A stretch of DNA of 64,000 bases from an uncultured Cytophagales bacterium. GTDB lineage: Bacteria; Bacteroidota; Bacteroidia; Cytophagales; Thermoflexibacteraceae. Below, piece after piece: positions 40,576-47,217 of this stretch (position 1 is the stretch's first letter; each line of letters starts with the position of its first letter). The notes below the pieces were generated by a model. The model ran no database searches. It was given only the letters and a program-made list of their open reading frames with translations, and was not told the DNA's origin. The stretch lies in NCBI GenBank assembly GCA_938039675.1, contig CALHUI010000003.1:372001-436000 (forward strand). Direction: 5' to 3'. Both the position numbers and the translations under genes were made by a program.

Positions 40576-42390
40576 TCAGGCAGCGTTGAGTTTAAGTTTT
40601 TTGGTTAATTCATAGTCAATAACAAAGCCCATCAGGTAGCTGACTTTTTTTTTGTCGTCAAATACGGGAAGGCCTTTTTCCCATACTCGTTTGATATTTC
40701 CGTCGGCGGTAAGCATGTCATACTCTATAACATAGAACTTGCGGTCGTTAATGGCCTTTTCAACTTCTGTATTTACATAGTTTTTGTAGTCTGGATGGAT
40801 GAGTTTGCCCAAGGGAACTTCGTTGCCGAGTACTTGTTCGCGCTGATAGCCTGTGAGCTGCTGTATATTGCCTTCAATAGCGATTGTGCGGTAGTCTTTT
40901 GTTACATCACAAACGTAGTAGAAGCCTTCTACTACATCCATTAGCAATTGACTGATTTCACTTTTGAGTATTAATTGCATTTGTTTTTCTTTAATTTCAT
41001 TGTTTTGCTGGCGCATTTTTTCGTATGATTTCTTTAAAATGATTTCGTTAGCCTCTATCTTGTTTTTTTGCACCGTTAATTGTTTATTGGCTTCTTCTAG
41101 TTCCCTGCGTTTTTTGTCGATCTCTTCTTTGTTTTGGCGCATTTTATCATAGGCTTTCTTGAGCACTGCTTCGTTGGCTTCCATTTTCTTTTTCTGAATC
41201 TCCATTTGCCTAATCATTTCTTGTTGTTCTTCGACCACTCTTCGGATTTTGTGCTCATTTTCTTCCAATTCTTCTTTGGCTTTTTGCAACTGCTGATGCG
41301 AAAGTTCCAGTTCTGCTTGTTTGCGCGCCATTTCTTCCTGAGTAGCTATCAGTTCTTCCATATTTTGGCGCATTTCTTCTTCCTGCGCGCGGAGTTGCTC
41401 GGCTATTTCTTGTGCCTCTTCCAACAAACGGAGATTTTTATGGTTAGCAGTAATGGTGGCAACAGTGGCTGCAATGTTTTCGCCTACCTGCAGTACAAAG
41501 TCAATCATATACTTCTCTATGGGGTTCATGGAAGCTATTTCAATGACACCATAGACCAATTCGTTGGCTTTTAGTGGTACAATGAGCAGGTATCGGGGAG
41601 TGGATTCGCCCAAGCCTGATGCTACGCGGGTGTACTCGGCAGGGAGGTTGTCCAAATAGAAATGTTGTTTTTCTAAGAATGCTTGCCCTATGAGGCCTTC
41701 TCCGGGCAGCAGTTGTTGCTTGGTAAGGCGCTCTTCTGACAAGGCAAAAGCGGCAGACAATTGCAGGATGCTGTTGCCTTTATGGTCTTCCTTGAGAATA
41801 TAGAGTGCGCCCTGAATGCCATTGATATACCGAACCATGTTGGTAATGATATCGCGGGCTATTTCCTCCTCGCTTTTTTGGTTGGCTCGCAATATCTGGG
41901 CGAAAAGTGCTATGCCCTCGGCTGCCCATTTGCGCTGTTGCTCTTGTTGGTTGATAGCTACTAACTGCTTTTTCATGGCCAGCAGCGCTTGTGCCAAGGG
42001 GTCTTTGGACAGTACCGTTTTATCTGTGGTCTGAAAATCAGCATCTAATTTTCCTTCGCCTATTTGTCTGATAAATTCGCGTGCTTGGCTGATGCCGCTT
42101 GTGGTGGTATTTAAGCTGTAAATAATTTGGTCAAAATACGGGTTTCCGCTATAATCAAATTGAATATTATAGTTGCCATTGGTTATTTTTTGGGCTATAT
42201 TAGCTATTTTTTTTACAGGTTCAATAAACCATACATGTGTAAAAATCAACAGTATTAAAATATTGACAATGATTACTATCAGAAACAATTCATCCCAAGT
42301 GCTTTGTGGATTGTTGCCCCAAAAATAACCCGTCACGGAAAGGACAACAGTGGCAAGTGCAATCAGATACAGCTTAGAACTATTGGACAT
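40576..42390 (-). CDS. Membrane sensor: two TM segments, HAMP, GAF, coiled coil, PAS; no kinase
   Basis: 604 residues. Two TM helices at about 6-24 and 33-53 with almost no periplasmic loop, then HAMP-like FIEPVKKIANIAQKITNGNY, a helical stretch, GAF at about 175-330 (YILKEDHKGNSILQLSAAFA, LLPGEGLIGQAF, YLLIVPLKANELVYGVIEIA). A coiled coil covers about 330-490, and a terminal PAS/PAC domain follows (GFYYVCDVTKDYRTIAIEGN). The coil contains a near-repeat: KKMEANEAVLKKAYDKMRQN and NKIEANEIILKKSYEKMRQQ. No histidine-kinase, GGDEF or phosphatase domain follows, so output must be by protein contact. First gene of a three-gene operon. Confidence 0.88.
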   Translation of the reverse strand: MSNSSKLYLIALATVVLSVTGYFWGNNPQSTWDELFLIVIIVNILILLIFTHVWFIEPVKKIANIAQKITNGNYNIQFDYSGNPYFDQIIYSLNTTTSGISQAREFIRQIGEGKLDADFQTTDKTVLSKDPLAQALLAMKKQLVAINQQEQQRKWAAEGIALFAQILRANQKSEEEIARDIITNMVRYINGIQGALYILKEDHKGNSILQLSAAFALSEERLTKQQLLPGEGLIGQAFLEKQHFYLDNLPAEYTRVASGLGESTPRYLLIVPLKANELVYGVIEIASMNPIEKYMIDFVLQVGENIAATVATITANHKNLRLLEEAQEIAEQLRAQEEEMRQNMEELIATQEEMARKQAELELSHQQLQKAKEELEENEHKIRRVVEEQQEMIRQMEIQKKKMEANEAVLKKAYDKMRQNKEEIDKKRRELEEANKQLTVQKNKIEANEIILKKSYEKMRQQNNEIKEKQMQLILKSEISQLLMDVVEGFYYVCDVTKDYRTIAIEGNIQQLTGYQREQVLGNEVPLGKLIHPDYKNYVNTEVEKAINDRKFYVIEYDMLTADGNIKRVWEKGLPVFDDKKKVSYLMGFVIDYELTKKLKLNAA

Positions 42391-42449
42391 AATGGCGTTT
42401 TTTATGCGTTTTCATGTGCACTAAAATACGTTTTTTTTGTTTAACCACC

Positions 42450-43673
42450 TTAGAAAGGCAACAAAGGATAGGTTTCGCCTTTTTTAAAATGCGATTGATG
42501 CGGCGGCAGCAAAAGAAATCCGTTTACTGACAGCAAGTTCACAAAGTCTCCTGAGCCGCCGCCTGCTACCGGTTCTGCCCAACAGATGCCCTCTCGGTCG
42601 GTGTACGTATGCACTTGTAAAAAATAAGTCAGTGCAGGGCTGAATGTTACATCATCGGTCAGGCGGGCATAGAGTAGGGGTTGTTCTTGTTGCAACAAAT
42701 GTTTTTGCAGCCAAGCCGCTACGTAGCGTTGTAGGCACATAAAGGCCGATACAGGATTACCCGGCAGCGCAAAAACAGTAGCAGGGCTTGTTTGCATCCG
42801 ACCAAACAGCAGAGGTTTGCCCGGCTTTTGTTTGACACCGTGAAAAATAATTTCAACACCCAGATTTTCAAGCAGGTCGGGTATGTAGTCTGCTTTGCCT
42901 GCCGAAACTCCACCACTGATAATAATCAAGTCGTAGTTGCTGATAATATGAGCAAGATTGGCTGTAATTATTTGCCGATTATCGGGCAGGTGGCTCGTAT
43001 GCGCAGATACACCATAAGTGGCTAATGCTGCGGCCAGCATATGAGCATTAGACTGCCGAATCTGATGCGGCAGCGGTGCAGATTCTATCGGGACAAGTTC
43101 ATCGCCCGTACCGATAACTATTGCCTTCGGCATACGCGATGTGTACAACTGTGCATAGCCGCAAGCTGCTGCAATGGCTATGTGTGCAGGTTTCAACAAA
43201 GTGCCAGAGGCTATCAGTTGTTGATTGGCTGCTGCATCGCTACCCTTCCAATGCACATTCTGATGTTTTTGAACTGCGGCATCAGGTTTTAAAAAAGCTA
43301 TTCGCCCCTCTGAAATATCAATGTCTTCGTAGCGAATAACAGTATCGGCATATAAGGGCAAAGGAGCACCTGTCATAATTTCTATACAATCATCGGTATT
43401 TTGCAGGGGCGGCGGTGCTGTGCCTGCCATGCTTGTATGCACTATCCGAAACTGTCTTTTGCCTCGTGCCAAGGCATCGTAACAGATGGCGATACCGTCC
43501 ATTGTTACTCTGTCAAACGGCGGGAAATCCCTGTCGGCAATCACCGGCCGCCGCAGAATTTTTCCTGTCGCATCTTTGAGAGAAGTCAGTTCTTCCGCAG
43601 CAGGAGGGGCAGCATCTTGTACAGCCTGCCATGCTTGGTCTGCACTTATTAAGTTTTTTTTCTGTGCGCGCAT
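42450..43673 (-). CDS. moeA: Molybdopterin molybdenumtransferase
   Basis: A 407-residue MoeA, inserting molybdate into adenylated molybdopterin. Seen: DRDFPPFDRVTMDGIAI near residue 55, EIMTGAPLPLYADTVIRYED, IGTGDELVPIESAPLPHQIRQSN, IISGGVSAGKADYIPDLL and FALPGNPVSAFMCL. All are canonical. ATG 43673 is taken over the TTG at 43679. No other moa or mog genes are in the window. Confidence 0.95.
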   Translation of the reverse strand: MRAQKKNLISADQAWQAVQDAAPPAAEELTSLKDATGKILRRPVIADRDFPPFDRVTMDGIAICYDALARGKRQFRIVHTSMAGTAPPPLQNTDDCIEIMTGAPLPLYADTVIRYEDIDISEGRIAFLKPDAAVQKHQNVHWKGSDAAANQQLIASGTLLKPAHIAIAAACGYAQLYTSRMPKAIVIGTGDELVPIESAPLPHQIRQSNAHMLAAALATYGVSAHTSHLPDNRQIITANLAHIISNYDLIIISGGVSAGKADYIPDLLENLGVEIIFHGVKQKPGKPLLFGRMQTSPATVFALPGNPVSAFMCLQRYVAAWLQKHLLQQEQPLLYARLTDDVTFSPALTYFLQVHTYTDREGICWAEPVAGGGSGDFVNLLSVNGFLLLPPHQSHFKKGETYPLLPF

Positions 43674-43695
43674 ATCCAAAAATAGGCAACACCGC

Positions 43696-43703
43696 TAATT
43701 TTG
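43696..43703 (+). promoter_or_regulatory. -7 element of the AI-2E permease gene
   Basis: TAATTTTG matches TAnnTTTG, 39 bp before the ATG at 43743. No clear -33 TTG at proper spacing. Confidence 0.35.
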
Positions 43704-43742
43704 AATTATTTTATAGTAGTCGAAAAGCCAAATTTTTTGGAT

Positions 43743-44834
43743 ATGCCACAAATGAAAATCAATTGGGGATTTATAGCCTTGCTGGTGGGCTTGTTGGCTG
43801 CCGTGTGGATTTTTGCGGATATTGTTATGTACATCATCCTGGCTATGGTGCTTTCCGGCATCCTAAAAGTACCAACCAATGCCATCAGTCAAATTCAGGT
43901 GAGGGGTGTGCGCATTCCGCGCAGTATCGCTATTTTGATTTCATTCAGCATTTTAGTAGGGGTATTGGCATTGTTCGTCTTGTTGTTTATGCCGCTAATT
44001 AATGAGCAGGCTGCCGTTATTGCCAATATTCCTTATGATGAGTTTTCCGACAAGCTATCCCTGCCAATAGCCCATGTGGAAGATTTTTTGATTAATTCAA
44101 AGATAGTTAATCAGCCGCGTGGTTTCCTGATTATTCAATTTAAGGAGAAATTGGGTGAAATATTTACACAATTCAAATTGGGCAATATGCTTAACGATTT
44201 GCTACTGACGACAGGCAATATTTTCATCGGAATCTTAGCTGTGCTCTTTATCACCTTTTTTTTTCTGTTTGAAAAAGGTAAAGTCAGAAAACAACTCATC
44301 GCCCTGATTCCCAATCGCTATTTTGAAGTCAGTATCAGTGCCATTCATAAAATTGAAAGATTGCTGTCCAATTACCTGCTTGGGCTGCTTTTGCAAATTA
44401 TTTCTATTTTTACGATTGTTTCGTTTAGTTTAATTATTTTGGGAATAAACTATGCAGTTACAATTGGCATTTTTGCAGCAATTGCCAATGTAATTCCTTT
44501 TGCGGGGCCTCTAATAGGCATTATTTTCGGAGTAGTTGTTGGTATTTCTACCGCACCGCCCGAATTATTGCAGGGAAATGGCTATCTTTTTCTACTGGGA
44601 CAGTTGCTATTAGCTTTTATCATCACTCAGATAATCGATAACGTTATCTTACAGCCGATTATTTTTTCAAAAAGTGTGAAAGCACATCCGCTTGAAATTT
44701 TTATAAGTGTTTTTGCGGGAGCTACCATAGGAGGGGTATTGGGAATGTTGGCTGCTATTCCGGCTTATACCGTCATCAAGGTATCTTTCTTGGAAATCAG
44801 AAAAGGGTTTAGAGAATATAAGGTTTTTAAATAA
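43743..44834 (+). CDS. AI-2E (TqsA/PerM) family permease
   Basis: A 363-residue inner-membrane protein with about eight TM helices. The early pair (INWGFIALLVGLLAAVWIF) is followed by a long amphipathic region, then FIGILAVLFITFFFLFEKGKV and NYAVTIGIFAAIANVIPFAGPLIG, which carries the family's conserved IPxxGPxIG motif, and late DNVILQPIIFSKSVKAHPLEI. Members export small molecules or act as Na+/H+ antiporters. The frame opens at 43701, but ATG 43743 gives the usual N-terminus. Confidence 0.9.
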   Translation: MPQMKINWGFIALLVGLLAAVWIFADIVMYIILAMVLSGILKVPTNAISQIQVRGVRIPRSIAILISFSILVGVLALFVLLFMPLINEQAAVIANIPYDEFSDKLSLPIAHVEDFLINSKIVNQPRGFLIIQFKEKLGEIFTQFKLGNMLNDLLLTTGNIFIGILAVLFITFFFLFEKGKVRKQLIALIPNRYFEVSISAIHKIERLLSNYLLGLLLQIISIFTIVSFSLIILGINYAVTIGIFAAIANVIPFAGPLIGIIFGVVVGISTAPPELLQGNGYLFLLGQLLLAFIITQIIDNVILQPIIFSKSVKAHPLEIFISVFAGATIGGVLGMLAAIPAYTVIKVSFLEIRKGFREYKVFK

Positions 44835-44843
44835 TCGGTGTAA

Positions 44844-44924
44844 TTATCCGTTGTGCAACCATTCCAATGCCGCTTCGGGGCTGCCGTTGTAATTGAGATA
44901 GACAACAAAGCATCGGTACGGCAT
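44844..44924 (-). CDS. Very small ORF after the HTH gene
   Basis: Twenty-six codons, MPYRCFVVYLNYNGSP then EAALEWLHNG and stop. It begins 6 nt after the HTH gene's TAA and in the same frame, so it could be a separate microprotein or the C-terminal end of the HTH protein behind a nonsense codon (CAA to TAA). No family recognised. Confidence 0.25.
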   Translation of the reverse strand: MPYRCFVVYLNYNGSPEAALEWLHNG

Positions 44925-44930
44925 TTTTGT

Positions 44931-45155
44931 TTACAACAGCGGCGCATCGTCCTCATTTACAATAGTTGTACGCGCTTTGTTAAATACCTGCATAATTTCC
45001 TCTACCTCGCCCGGATAAAGCCATTTTTTACCCTTATATCGGTCGCCAAAGTGCATTTTCAAGTGCCTGTAAATAGTTATGCGCGATACGCCAAAGATTG
45101 TGCTCAAGTCTGCCATTGAGCGAATTTGAGAATAGTCTGGTTTACCTGATGGCAT
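44931..45155 (-). CDS. Small helix-turn-helix regulator of the island
   Basis: A 74-residue protein with a helix-turn-helix in MADLSTIFGVSRITIYRHL (about residues 14-32), then a basic KGKKWLYPGEVEEIMQVF tail. Similar short HTH proteins occur in phages and integrated elements as transcription or replication regulators. It is transcribed away from the three tail-like genes, with a 208-bp AT-rich intergenic region and a GC-rich hairpin between. The frame extends upstream to 45233; ATG 45155 is chosen because the extension is Lys/Asn-rich filler. Confidence 0.6.
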   Translation of the reverse strand: MPSGKPDYSQIRSMADLSTIFGVSRITIYRHLKMHFGDRYKGKKWLYPGEVEEIMQVFNKARTTIVNEDDAPLL

Positions 45156-45305
45156 AGGGTTATTGGTTTTCGATTTAATTATTAGCTTAACATATCGTAA
45201 CATTCTCTTACAAATTGTGCTACATTTTTGCACAAATATGCAGCCGTTTGAAAGTTAGATAGTTACGTTTTTTCTTTGCATCAGCTTTTACAATTAAACC
45301 AACAG

Positions 45306-45354
45306 GCAGCGCGAGGGCGGTGTGAAGTGGGAAAAGATTTTGCCGCCCCGCTGC
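45306..45354 (+). repeat. GC-rich hairpin upstream of the first tail-like gene
   Basis: GCAGCG (45306-45311) pairs with CGCTGC (45349-45354) and GGGCGG (45315-45320) with CCGCCC (45343-45348): 12 pairs with a 3-nt bulge and a 22-nt loop. It ends 9 bp before the ATG at 45364, so it could restrict translation or be a protein-binding DNA site. It stands out in an otherwise AT-rich intergenic region. Confidence 0.6.
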
Positions 45355-45363
45355 ATTTAGCTT

Positions 45364-45972
45364 ATGCAATTTACTACAAACTTAGACTTTGGCATACCAA
45401 GCGGTGTAGAACTAAGTGGCAGGTTCGCAGAGCGGAGGGCAGAGAAAAGAGAGCGGCAGCAAGAGCGACGTGCTTTAAAAGCAGACAGACGCAACAGATG
45501 ACTATCTGCCCGTACAAAAGCTGAACGCCGCGACATTAGGCAAAATCGCCGCAATGCTCGGGTAGCTAACCGCCATGAGTTTCGCATGAGCCATAACTTT
45601 AAGACTGCCGCACAAGCGCGTGGTCAAATGTTTCAAGCTGCTACAGGGCTTGTATCAAATATTACAGGCAGGGGAGGAGGAGGCTTCCCGCCATTAGATA
45701 ACTTTCCACCTACGGGCGGCGGCAATTTTCAAAACGATTTCAACGACGACCCAAGACCACAACCGCGAGGCTTGTTTGGCCCGCGACCACTCATAAGAGG
45801 CGTACCGGACATTATTACCGTCGGAGGCGCAGCAATACCTACCAACAGATGCGAGGCTGGGATGCTGGTCTATGTGCGCAGCGAGCGCAATATTTATATG
45901 CTTGACCATGACTTAGTTACGTGGTTAGAGTACGGGAAAGTTGTCGCTGATTTGATTGAACCCTATTTATGA
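45364..45972 (+). pseudogene. Phage tail-like gene 1 with in-frame TGA
   Basis: Reads MQFTTNLDFGIPSGVELSG, then a strongly Arg/Glu-rich stretch (AERRAEKRERQQERRALK), then a TGA at 45499-45501. It continues in the same frame (LSARTKAERRDIRQNRRNAR ... MSHNFKTAAQARGQMFQAA) to a Gly/Pro-rich linker and the repeat module IPTNRCEAGMLVYV ... MLDHDLVTWLEY at the end. The stop sits inside the basic tract, where CGA (Arg) to TGA is the simplest change. The downstream part alone (from ATG 45586, 128 aa) may still be translated. The module resembles a repeat in phage tail and fibre proteins of Bacteroidetes phages; this is from memory. Confidence 0.65.
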
Positions 45973-46195
45973 TAAACGGAACAGTTTTAGTACAGTCCGT
46001 TATTGCGCCAAGTCGCGAAGGCGATAATTACGCTACGCATGAAGCGCGTTGGGGGCGCGGAGGCTATCGCACCGTAGAAGATATTGCAGAGCGAAATGCA
46101 ATACCTACGCGCCGCCGTGAGGCGGGTATGCTGGTATTTGTAGAAGAGGACGGTATTACCTATATGCTTGACCATGACTTAGTTACGTGGTTAGA
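45895..46195 (+). repeat. 35-bp exact direct repeat within tail-like genes 1 and 2
   Basis: 45895-45929 and 46161-46195 are identical over 35 bp (starting TATATGCTTGACCATGACTT). Each encodes YMLDHDLVTWL in the shared module; the spacing is 266 bp. Identity at the DNA level across a protein repeat points to recent duplication or gene conversion. Confidence 0.9.
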
Positions 46196-46391
46196 CTTTA
46201 GATTAGTCTTAGCAAACTTAGTACGCCCGCATATGCCACCACCGCCACCGGACGGAGACGATCCGCCTGATGCAGGTTTTTGTTTGCAGTGTGGAATAAA
46301 CCTAACAGGCGCAACGATTTGCGGAGAGACAGGCAGCAGTGGTTCATTGTCAGTTTCAGATTGTCCGAATGGATTACCAATATTAAACTAA
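45969..46391 (+). CDS. Phage tail-like gene 2 (module plus Pro/Cys tail)
   Basis: A 140-residue protein, start overlapping the gene 1 stop (ATGA). It opens MINGTVLVQSVIAPSREGDN, then RGGYRTVEDIAERNAIPTRR, the core EAGMLVFVEEDGITYMLDHD and VTWLD. The C-terminus has a poly-Pro run (PPPPPDGDDPPDAG) and a Cys/Gly/Ser-rich tail with three cysteines. It is the only intact member of the three. The module occurs, from general knowledge, in tail and virion proteins of Bacteroidetes phages; the tail is unlike anything I recognise. Confidence 0.65.
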   Translation: MINGTVLVQSVIAPSREGDNYATHEARWGRGGYRTVEDIAERNAIPTRRREAGMLVFVEEDGITYMLDHDLVTWLDFRLVLANLVRPHMPPPPPDGDDPPDAGFCLQCGINLTGATICGETGSSGSLSVSDCPNGLPILN

Positions 46392-46396
46392 TTCTT

Positions 46397-46927
46397 ATGT
46401 CAGCAATACCCGGAGGCGTTAGGGTGCAAGGCTTTATTGCACCAACTTCAAGTAACGATACATACCCCGTAACCGACCCGCACTATGGTTTAGGTGGGCT
46501 ACGAACAGTTTTGAACCTTGGGCAGCGCGATCAAATACCAGCAGCGCGGCGCATGGTTGGTATGCTTGTTTTCGTGCAGCAGCAAAACAAGTAGTACAAA
46601 CTCTTAGATGACCTTGTGCAATGGGAGGAAGTGGACTTATCCAATATCATTATCTCCGAAACCAATCCAACCGTACCAACGCACGTAAAGCAGATACCGC
46701 AAGACAGCACCAATGAGCAGGTTTTGCAGTGGAACGGCACAACTTGGGAAACGGTAACGCCTCCCCCGCCCGCAGCAGGAGTATTACTTACAACAGGCGT
46801 TACAGCGGGCACATATACCTCAATAACTTCATTAACGGTAGATGAATTTGGACAGATAACTAATGTTATAGGTCTTTTGCCTCCAACAGAACAGGAGAGT
46901 CCCCTGCCCGTTCCCCAGCAATCGTAA
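46397..46927 (+). pseudogene. Phage tail-like gene 3 with in-frame TAG
   Basis: Begins MSAIPGGVRVQGFIAPTSSN, continues GLGGLRTVLNLGQRDQIPAA and RRMVGMLVFVQQQNK, then TAG (46592-46594) and, in the same frame, YKLLDDLVQWEEVDLSN, VLQWNGTTWETVTPPPPAAG and GTYTSITSLTVDEFGQITNV, ending SPLPVPQQS. The stop lies in the middle of the module shared with genes 1 and 2 (aligned to DGITYMLDHD). CAG (Gln) to TAG is the simplest origin. The C-terminal GTYTSITVD-type segment is common in phage fibre proteins. It may be truncated at the 3' end. The region 46928-47087 downstream shows no gene. Confidence 0.65.
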
Positions 46928-47121: not shown

Positions 47122-47143
47122 CGGCTCAATTTGAATGTTTTCG

Positions 47144-47217
47144 TAGCGGAGACGGGAATTGAACCCGTGACCTTAGGGTTATGAATCCTACGCTCTAACC
47201 ATCTGAGCTACCCCGCC
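47144..47217 (-). tRNA. tRNA-Met (CAU), CCA not encoded
   Basis: The minus strand folds as a 74-nt cloverleaf: acceptor GGCGGGG with CTCCGCT (two G-T wobbles), D-arm GCTCAGATGGTTAGAGC, anticodon loop TTCATAA containing CAT, T-arm ACGGG-TTCAATT-CCCGT, discriminator A. The first pair and D-arm argue for elongator Met; a lysidine-modified Ile2 tRNA cannot be excluded from sequence alone. Confidence 0.93.

Follow-up and report, generated by a model that had tools for sequence, protein, structure and literature searches.

The locus beside tRNA-Met in the window (the window being the whole stretch of 64,000 nucleotides of an uncultured Cytophagales bacterium that we analyzed) is best explained as what deletions have left of an integrated element at a tRNA-Met hot spot, carrying phage virion modules that most likely belong to trimerizing fibers, and we put the probability of this reading at about 0.82. 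The evidence of decay includes an integrase remnant, a breakpoint at the left end, an in-frame TAG and a patchy distribution, whereas the intact g2, together with an HTH-like ORF and a g1 N-terminus for which no phage relative was found, are points against a remnant. The features of the locus are listed in Table 1.

Table 1. Positions of the features of the locus within the window.
Feature	Position	Strand	Remarks
Last ~13 codons of the flanking 137-aa gene	44844-44884	-	Cut at about 44884
Probable island-gene fragment	44871-44912	+	Resembles the gene for a 178-aa protein of the G002 island
HTH-like ORF	44931-45233	-	Diverges from g1; likely start at the ATG, 45158
In-frame stretch before g1, possibly extending its N-terminus	45364-45585	+	Broken by TGA 45499-45501
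g1	45586-45972	+	128 aa; has only the second half of the module (about residues 83-115)
35-nt stretch in g1 (YMLDHDLVTWL...)	45895-45929	+	Identical to 46161-46195 in g2
g2	45969-46391	+	140 aa; whole module (about residues 1-80); uninterrupted frame
g3	46397-46927	+	Single frame; complete module; in-frame TAG 46592-46594; 3' end replaced from about 46898
Tyrosine integrase remnant, ~20 N-terminal codons	46898-46960	-	One base short near start
tRNA-Met (CAT), integration target	47143-47217	-	Same tRNA in G002, G003 and G001

Module copies and coding state of the locus

The genes g1 to g3 lie on the 3' side of the minus-strand tRNA-Met, and an earlier sequence-only reading described all three as sharing one module. 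This description is accurate for g2 and g3, which both carry the full module of approximately 80 residues at the N-terminus, with the qualification that g3 is interrupted by the TAG. The match of g1 begins at "AIPTNR" and extends to the C-terminus of the protein, meaning that it has the second half only, and the window therefore holds two and a half modules, not three. The likeness among the copies is far above chance, as determined by BLASTP (g1 vs. g2, E 1e-17, 46 aa, 59% identity; g2 vs. g3, E 5e-17, 60 aa, 45%; g1 vs. g3, E 1e-7, 32 aa, 47%). Two further features named by the same reading were confirmed, the 4-bp overlap of g1 and g2 (ATGA) and the presence of an HTH-like ORF on the opposite strand, facing away from g1.

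A later ORF with a GTG start represents the part of g3 that lies past the TAG, and since the last codons of g3 fall in DNA antisense to the integrase remnant, this gene is without a 3' end of its own. Recoding of TAG occurs in some Bacteroidota phages; as a default, however, we disfavored a sense reading of this codon because it is a lone stop and the 3' end of the gene is truncated as well. Although the shared protein part of g1 and g2 is 59% identical, 35 bases of the two genes are 100% identical, compared with 75% identity over a 44-nt stretch shortly before them, and this difference points to a recent event inside the decaying locus, either a local duplication or a conversion between g1 and g2. 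Neither g2 nor g3 has a Gly-X-Y run, as judged by eye. A search of the bacterium's own genome returned no second module site at E <= 1 (g3 was reported with one TAG inside), and we consequently rejected a source copy or resident phage in that genome. A search with one phage portal also gave no match there, an empty result that carries no weight by itself.

The HTH-like ORF matched 13 families, nearly all of them HTH families and all under their gathering cut-offs (best E 0.0054). It was present in one of the 390 genomes of the order, namely its own, and the phage search did not find a phage relative. The frame of g1 continues upstream across the TGA to the ATG at 45364, and this stretch is possibly a broken N-terminus. 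Matches to it were obtained in 5/390 genomes at E <= 0.01, including its own, the other four being unconvincing at 0.005-0.008, and no relatives of it were found in the phage search.

Codon bias, scored against host usage, gave z values of 3.5 for the HTH-like ORF from its ATG and 2.9 for g1, while g2 is weakly coding (z 1.7) and g3 scored 1.2 before the TAG and 2.1 after it. The g1 extension scored 0.5 before its TGA and 2.5 after, and the two native controls had values of 5.1 and 8.2. The bias of g1 to g3 agrees with that of foreign genes and lends no support to use by the host. Base composition does not mark the island off, its GC content (0.40-0.50) being like that of the surroundings, and a promoter and terminator scan of the locus gave counts no higher than those in shuffled sequences. 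No portal, capsid, cement or tail neighbors were recognized around g1 to g3 in the window, for which reason we describe the locus as a phage-derived remnant and not as a phage.

The tRNA-Met site and its broken junctions

The sequence-only reading reported no integrase, which proved to be incorrect in detail: at the right end of the locus is a tyrosine integrase remnant, with 17 of 20 residues identical to the integrase of a congener, G002 (E 1.9e-5 against the whole window), and the DNA alignment with G002 also shows this remnant, with one base fewer near its start. In G002 the integrase is complete (385 aa; PF00589, E 2e-14) and located beside the same tRNA-Met, in support of the earlier proposal that the island lies on the integration side of the tRNA. 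The right flank of the locus aligns with that of G002 as far as window position 46898, with 92% of the DNA identical. On the left, the blastn alignment with contig C7 of G002 spans 42000-44884, also at 92%, and then stops. G002 has the 137-aa flanking gene in intact form, where it likewise follows the AI-2E transporter gene, and the left end in the window has an 18-aa match to its protein (E 0.006).

At the left junction, the flanking gene meets a fragment resembling a G002 island gene at a GGGCTGC/GGGTTGC microhomology. At the nucleotide level the two are 88.6% identical over 35 nt (E 7e-7 in a blastn comparison with 10 kb), based on which the fragment probably derives from that island gene; we grade this assignment no higher because the match at the protein level is weak (E 0.23). 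The 178-aa product of the G002 gene had no Pfam match. Both ends of the island are broken. Consequently, of the two possibilities initially put forward, a remnant or a small self-contained set, the remnant stands, and self-containment does not, given that both ends are broken and one gene is interrupted. An attachment-site duplication had not been seen by the sequence-only reading either, and our searches found no second copy. This is a point against an integrated element, but loss of the left end would explain the missing copy.

The G002 genome, which has no module match, provided a comparison for the interval. Its island is like that of the window in the tRNA-Met, the integrase gene and the right flank, but unlike it in holding a Fic protein and other genes. 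The cargo (L012:2989-9950) comprises the integrase, Fic, a toxin-antitoxin-like gene pair (by eye) and several similarly patterned proteins. The G002 contig with the tRNA ends within the island and the AI-2E gene is near the end of another contig, and we infer that the same insertion lies between these two contigs. The G002 island contained no recognizable phage structural gene (three proteins scanned, the rest by eye); the window may therefore have received its integrase remnant and its phage genes in different insertions. For the congeners G001 and G003, the sequence to the left of the tRNA was read by eye over about 5.9 and 2.0 kb, respectively, and neither an integrase nor an island was recognized there; the AI-2E gene sits on a different contig from the tRNA. 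With different cargo in two close relatives, the tRNA-Met appears as a hot spot in the genus.

Because G002 has an intact integrase at this site, we propose that an element with a tyrosine integrase inserted itself at the 3' side of the tRNA-Met. Later deletions, of which both broken junctions are seen, would then have taken almost the entire integrase along with the left side of the insertion, leaving the small HTH-like gene beside two and a half virion-protein modules, one of them broken by a stop codon.

Phage relatives and predicted fold of the module

A profile search of the three proteins, as had been proposed by the sequence-only reading, matched the phage family phrog_23630 (g2, E 3.2e-11; g3, E 6.3e-12; g1, only 6.7e-4), and g2 and g3 had weaker matches to a "virion structural protein" family and a "tail protein" family in PHROG. 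The phrog_23630 family comprises phage proteins of unknown function and has 258 positions, of which the module matches only about 3-80. It was also matched by four of six other module proteins scanned (L089, L111, L042:11338 and L041), and was not listed for L018:15863 and L042:10255. Together, the profile, synteny and fold evidence shows that g2 and g3 are of phage structural origin and that g1 is a partial relative. The label "phage tail-like" was therefore right as to phage and too narrow as to tail, since the relatives have the annotation or the genomic position of virion structural, head or tail-fiber proteins.

Relatives of the module are widespread in viral sequences. A search of IMG/VR with a four-sequence alignment as the query gave 302 stretches matching the pattern, 175 of which encoded a relative, and 80 were kept. 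With a viral module member as the query, 57 of 50,697 phage records matched at E <= 1e-3. Phages carrying the module include Tunturi_5 (annotated "tail fiber protein"), Bacteroides phage SJC03 ("hypothetical protein"), and Erwinia and Dickeya phages. In BFVD there were 11 fold matches at E <= 1e-3, including two named tail fiber and two named structural proteins. Viral locus L089 has the gene order portal (phrog_21, 3e-58; PF05136), capsid/protease (phrog_4523, 2e-64), cement (PF09956), head-tail joining (PF25138), module gene and tail-fiber-like gene, and the gene sizes of many other viral loci echo this order, only L089 and parts of L111 being annotated. No convincing Pfam or NCBIfam match was obtained for any of 40 module members (best E 0.026 and 0.055), and our literature search retrieved no paper on this module within the terms and collection searched.

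In a profile search of 87 loci (80 viral and seven from four relative genomes), 84 had one module ORF each at the cut-off, which is a lower bound, as the profile missed a neighboring copy in L042 that was seen with PHROGs. The module begins at or before residue 15 in 72 of the 84 ORFs. The sequence past it varies from almost nothing to over 1,000 residues, with 34 of the 84 ORFs being at most 130 aa and the longest 1585 aa, and some are cut by contig ends. The alignment of viral members (A3) contains 38 of 41 non-redundant rows, having omitted two second partial stretches and one near-duplicate.

Conserved presence at the same site across distant Cytophagales, which the sequence-only reading had named as evidence against an island, was not found. 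The module is in 5 of 390 genomes of the order, its own included, and in none of the three other genomes of the genus, so that among these four only its own genome has it. A conserved host gene was rejected on the basis of this patchy distribution. Tandem module genes also exist outside the window: in G145, two adjacent genes with module-like parts (L042:10255-12024) are accompanied by an endolysin (phrog_315, 2e-30) in a stretch that is otherwise unrecognized. The genomes G079 and G037 have two genes near the module in common (E 1e-64 and 6e-19; L040:5908-8181, and L015:18958-19901 with L016:448-1650), and to judge from this sequence similarity their module regions may belong to related Cytophagales elements. 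Contig C19 of G079 (49,227 bases; L039, L040 and L018), which carries a module gene, resembles a phage-plasmid. By eye it has ParA-like, possible Rep and resolvase-like genes and several small proteins with a terminal membrane helix, along with an endolysin (phrog_315, 2e-37) and a weak terminase-like ATPase (E 4e-4); five of eight scanned L018 proteins were without a PHROG match at E <= 1.

Confidence in the structural model of g2 is confined to about residues 31-90 (block means 80-96), where the predicted order is a strand, a helix, three strands and a last helix, with the first 30 residues and the tail poorly predicted. Foldseek of this model against the PDB returned nothing under E 0.001 (best E 0.27), the top rows, at E 0.27-0.43, being the phage CBA120 tailspike and the human collagen XVIII and XV trimerization domains. 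After realignment the collagen XV/XVIII domains were the first rows (Z 5.8, next 5.6), with an rmsd of 2.3 over 49 residues for 9bnb_C and of 7.3 over 53 residues for 3n3f_B, both at Z 5.8. The rows that followed were mainly phage tailspikes and fibers, and one of them, the phage protein 7chu (Z 4.7), ties with the collagen rows at Z 5.0-5.6, as rows within 1 Z are counted as tied. A model of the phage homolog from L089 again placed the collagen XV/XVIII domains first (Z 5.0-5.2, rmsd 6.0-7.1; at Z 5.2, 6.0 over 54 residues), but it has no residue at pLDDT 90 or above and its alignment is mostly common with that of the g2 model, so the two are not independent. The model-based Z scores of 5.8 and 5.2, both below 8, are not decisive for a collagen-type fold.

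The human domain (3n3f, 3hsh and 9bnb) provides the top rows for both models, yet it has no sequence match to the module above cut-off. PF20010 (Collagen_trimer) was listed for one of 40 sequences, well under its threshold (g1; E 0.09, 13.3 bits vs. a gathering cut-off of 23.8), and because this cut-off was missed we consider that the module may work like that family, not that it is a member. Sequence searches of solved structures gave chance-level matches only. Separate support for trimerization comes from the protein architecture. Runs of at least six Gly-X-Y units were found in 15 of the 34 distinct viral-locus module proteins longer than 130 aa, vs. 19 of the 931 remaining distinct ORFs (these ORFs are mechanical, not all being genes, and the sequences are related, which leaves the Fisher value, 6e-15, as a guide only), and in 11 of these 15 the run starts at about residue 79-85, right behind the module; the other 19 of the 34 are without a six-unit run. 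A collagen triple helix requires three chains in register. In collagen XVIII, the trimerization domain comes after the triple helix, whereas the phage module comes before it.

A phage example of such a domain is the Klebsiella phage K1 lyase (7w1d), whose N-terminal domain is described as having a collagen-XVIII-like fold and a similar trimer (PMC8822698). The g2 model matches it at Z 4.2 (rmsd 2.2 over 46 residues), but it has no sequence match to the module, is missing from the rows shown for the L089 model and is joined to a polysaccharide lyase. Based on the first rows of the fold comparison and the position of the Gly-X-Y runs, the module is most likely a fiber trimerization domain in phages. 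We give an even chance to the broader proposal that a widespread, unnamed phage domain shares both fold and trimerizing role with the animal collagen XV/XVIII domain and, located N-terminal to the fibers and often immediately before a collagen-like triple helix, would set the register of that helix.

Alternative explanations and significance

With respect to the module, a receptor- or sugar-binding domain is the alternative to a trimerization domain, and the weak fold matches of g2 to the chitin-active GbpA protein and to parts of tailspikes would suit it, as would the annotation of some relatives as tail fibers. Receptor binding is, however, usually at the variable C-terminal tip of a fiber, whereas the module is N-terminal with sequence of highly variable length behind it, often beginning directly with Gly-X-Y repeats, and we consider this alternative unlikely.

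With respect to the locus, the cell might keep g1, g2 and the HTH regulator as domesticated structural genes, for example for a tailocin-like particle or surface fiber. The open, well-conserved sequence of g2, its overlap with g1 and the coding bias of g1 and the HTH-like ORF are compatible with such a role, but the genes are missing from the other genomes of the genus, g3 is broken, the coding bias of g2 is weak, and the four island proteins scanned matched no sheath, tube, baseplate or lysis family, all of which makes domestication quite improbable. Even less probable is a satellite or phage-inducible island whose fiber genes redirect a helper phage. It would account for the small size, the tRNA site, the integrase remnant, the HTH-like gene and the several fiber-type genes; against it, the integrase is down to about 20 codons, g3 contains a stop codon, the left end is truncated, and no packaging or replication gene was recognized among the same four proteins.

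We therefore favor the remnant of an integrated element, and expect that the locus is probably idle now in this genome, although g2 could still be translated. In a working phage, the conserved arm of about 30 residues would, to judge from its conservation, be a docking peptide on the virion, the compact domain of about 50 residues would join three chains, and the tip, whose variation is evident from the protein lengths, would often form a collagen-like triple helix. The locus is ordinary, a scar of past integration, while its unnamed module is mildly interesting: found in 175 viral stretches and having no convincing Pfam or NCBIfam match, it gains a concrete candidate role. If trimerization is shown, this would aid the annotation of many "hypothetical" phage structural genes and would provide a compact trimerizing tag.
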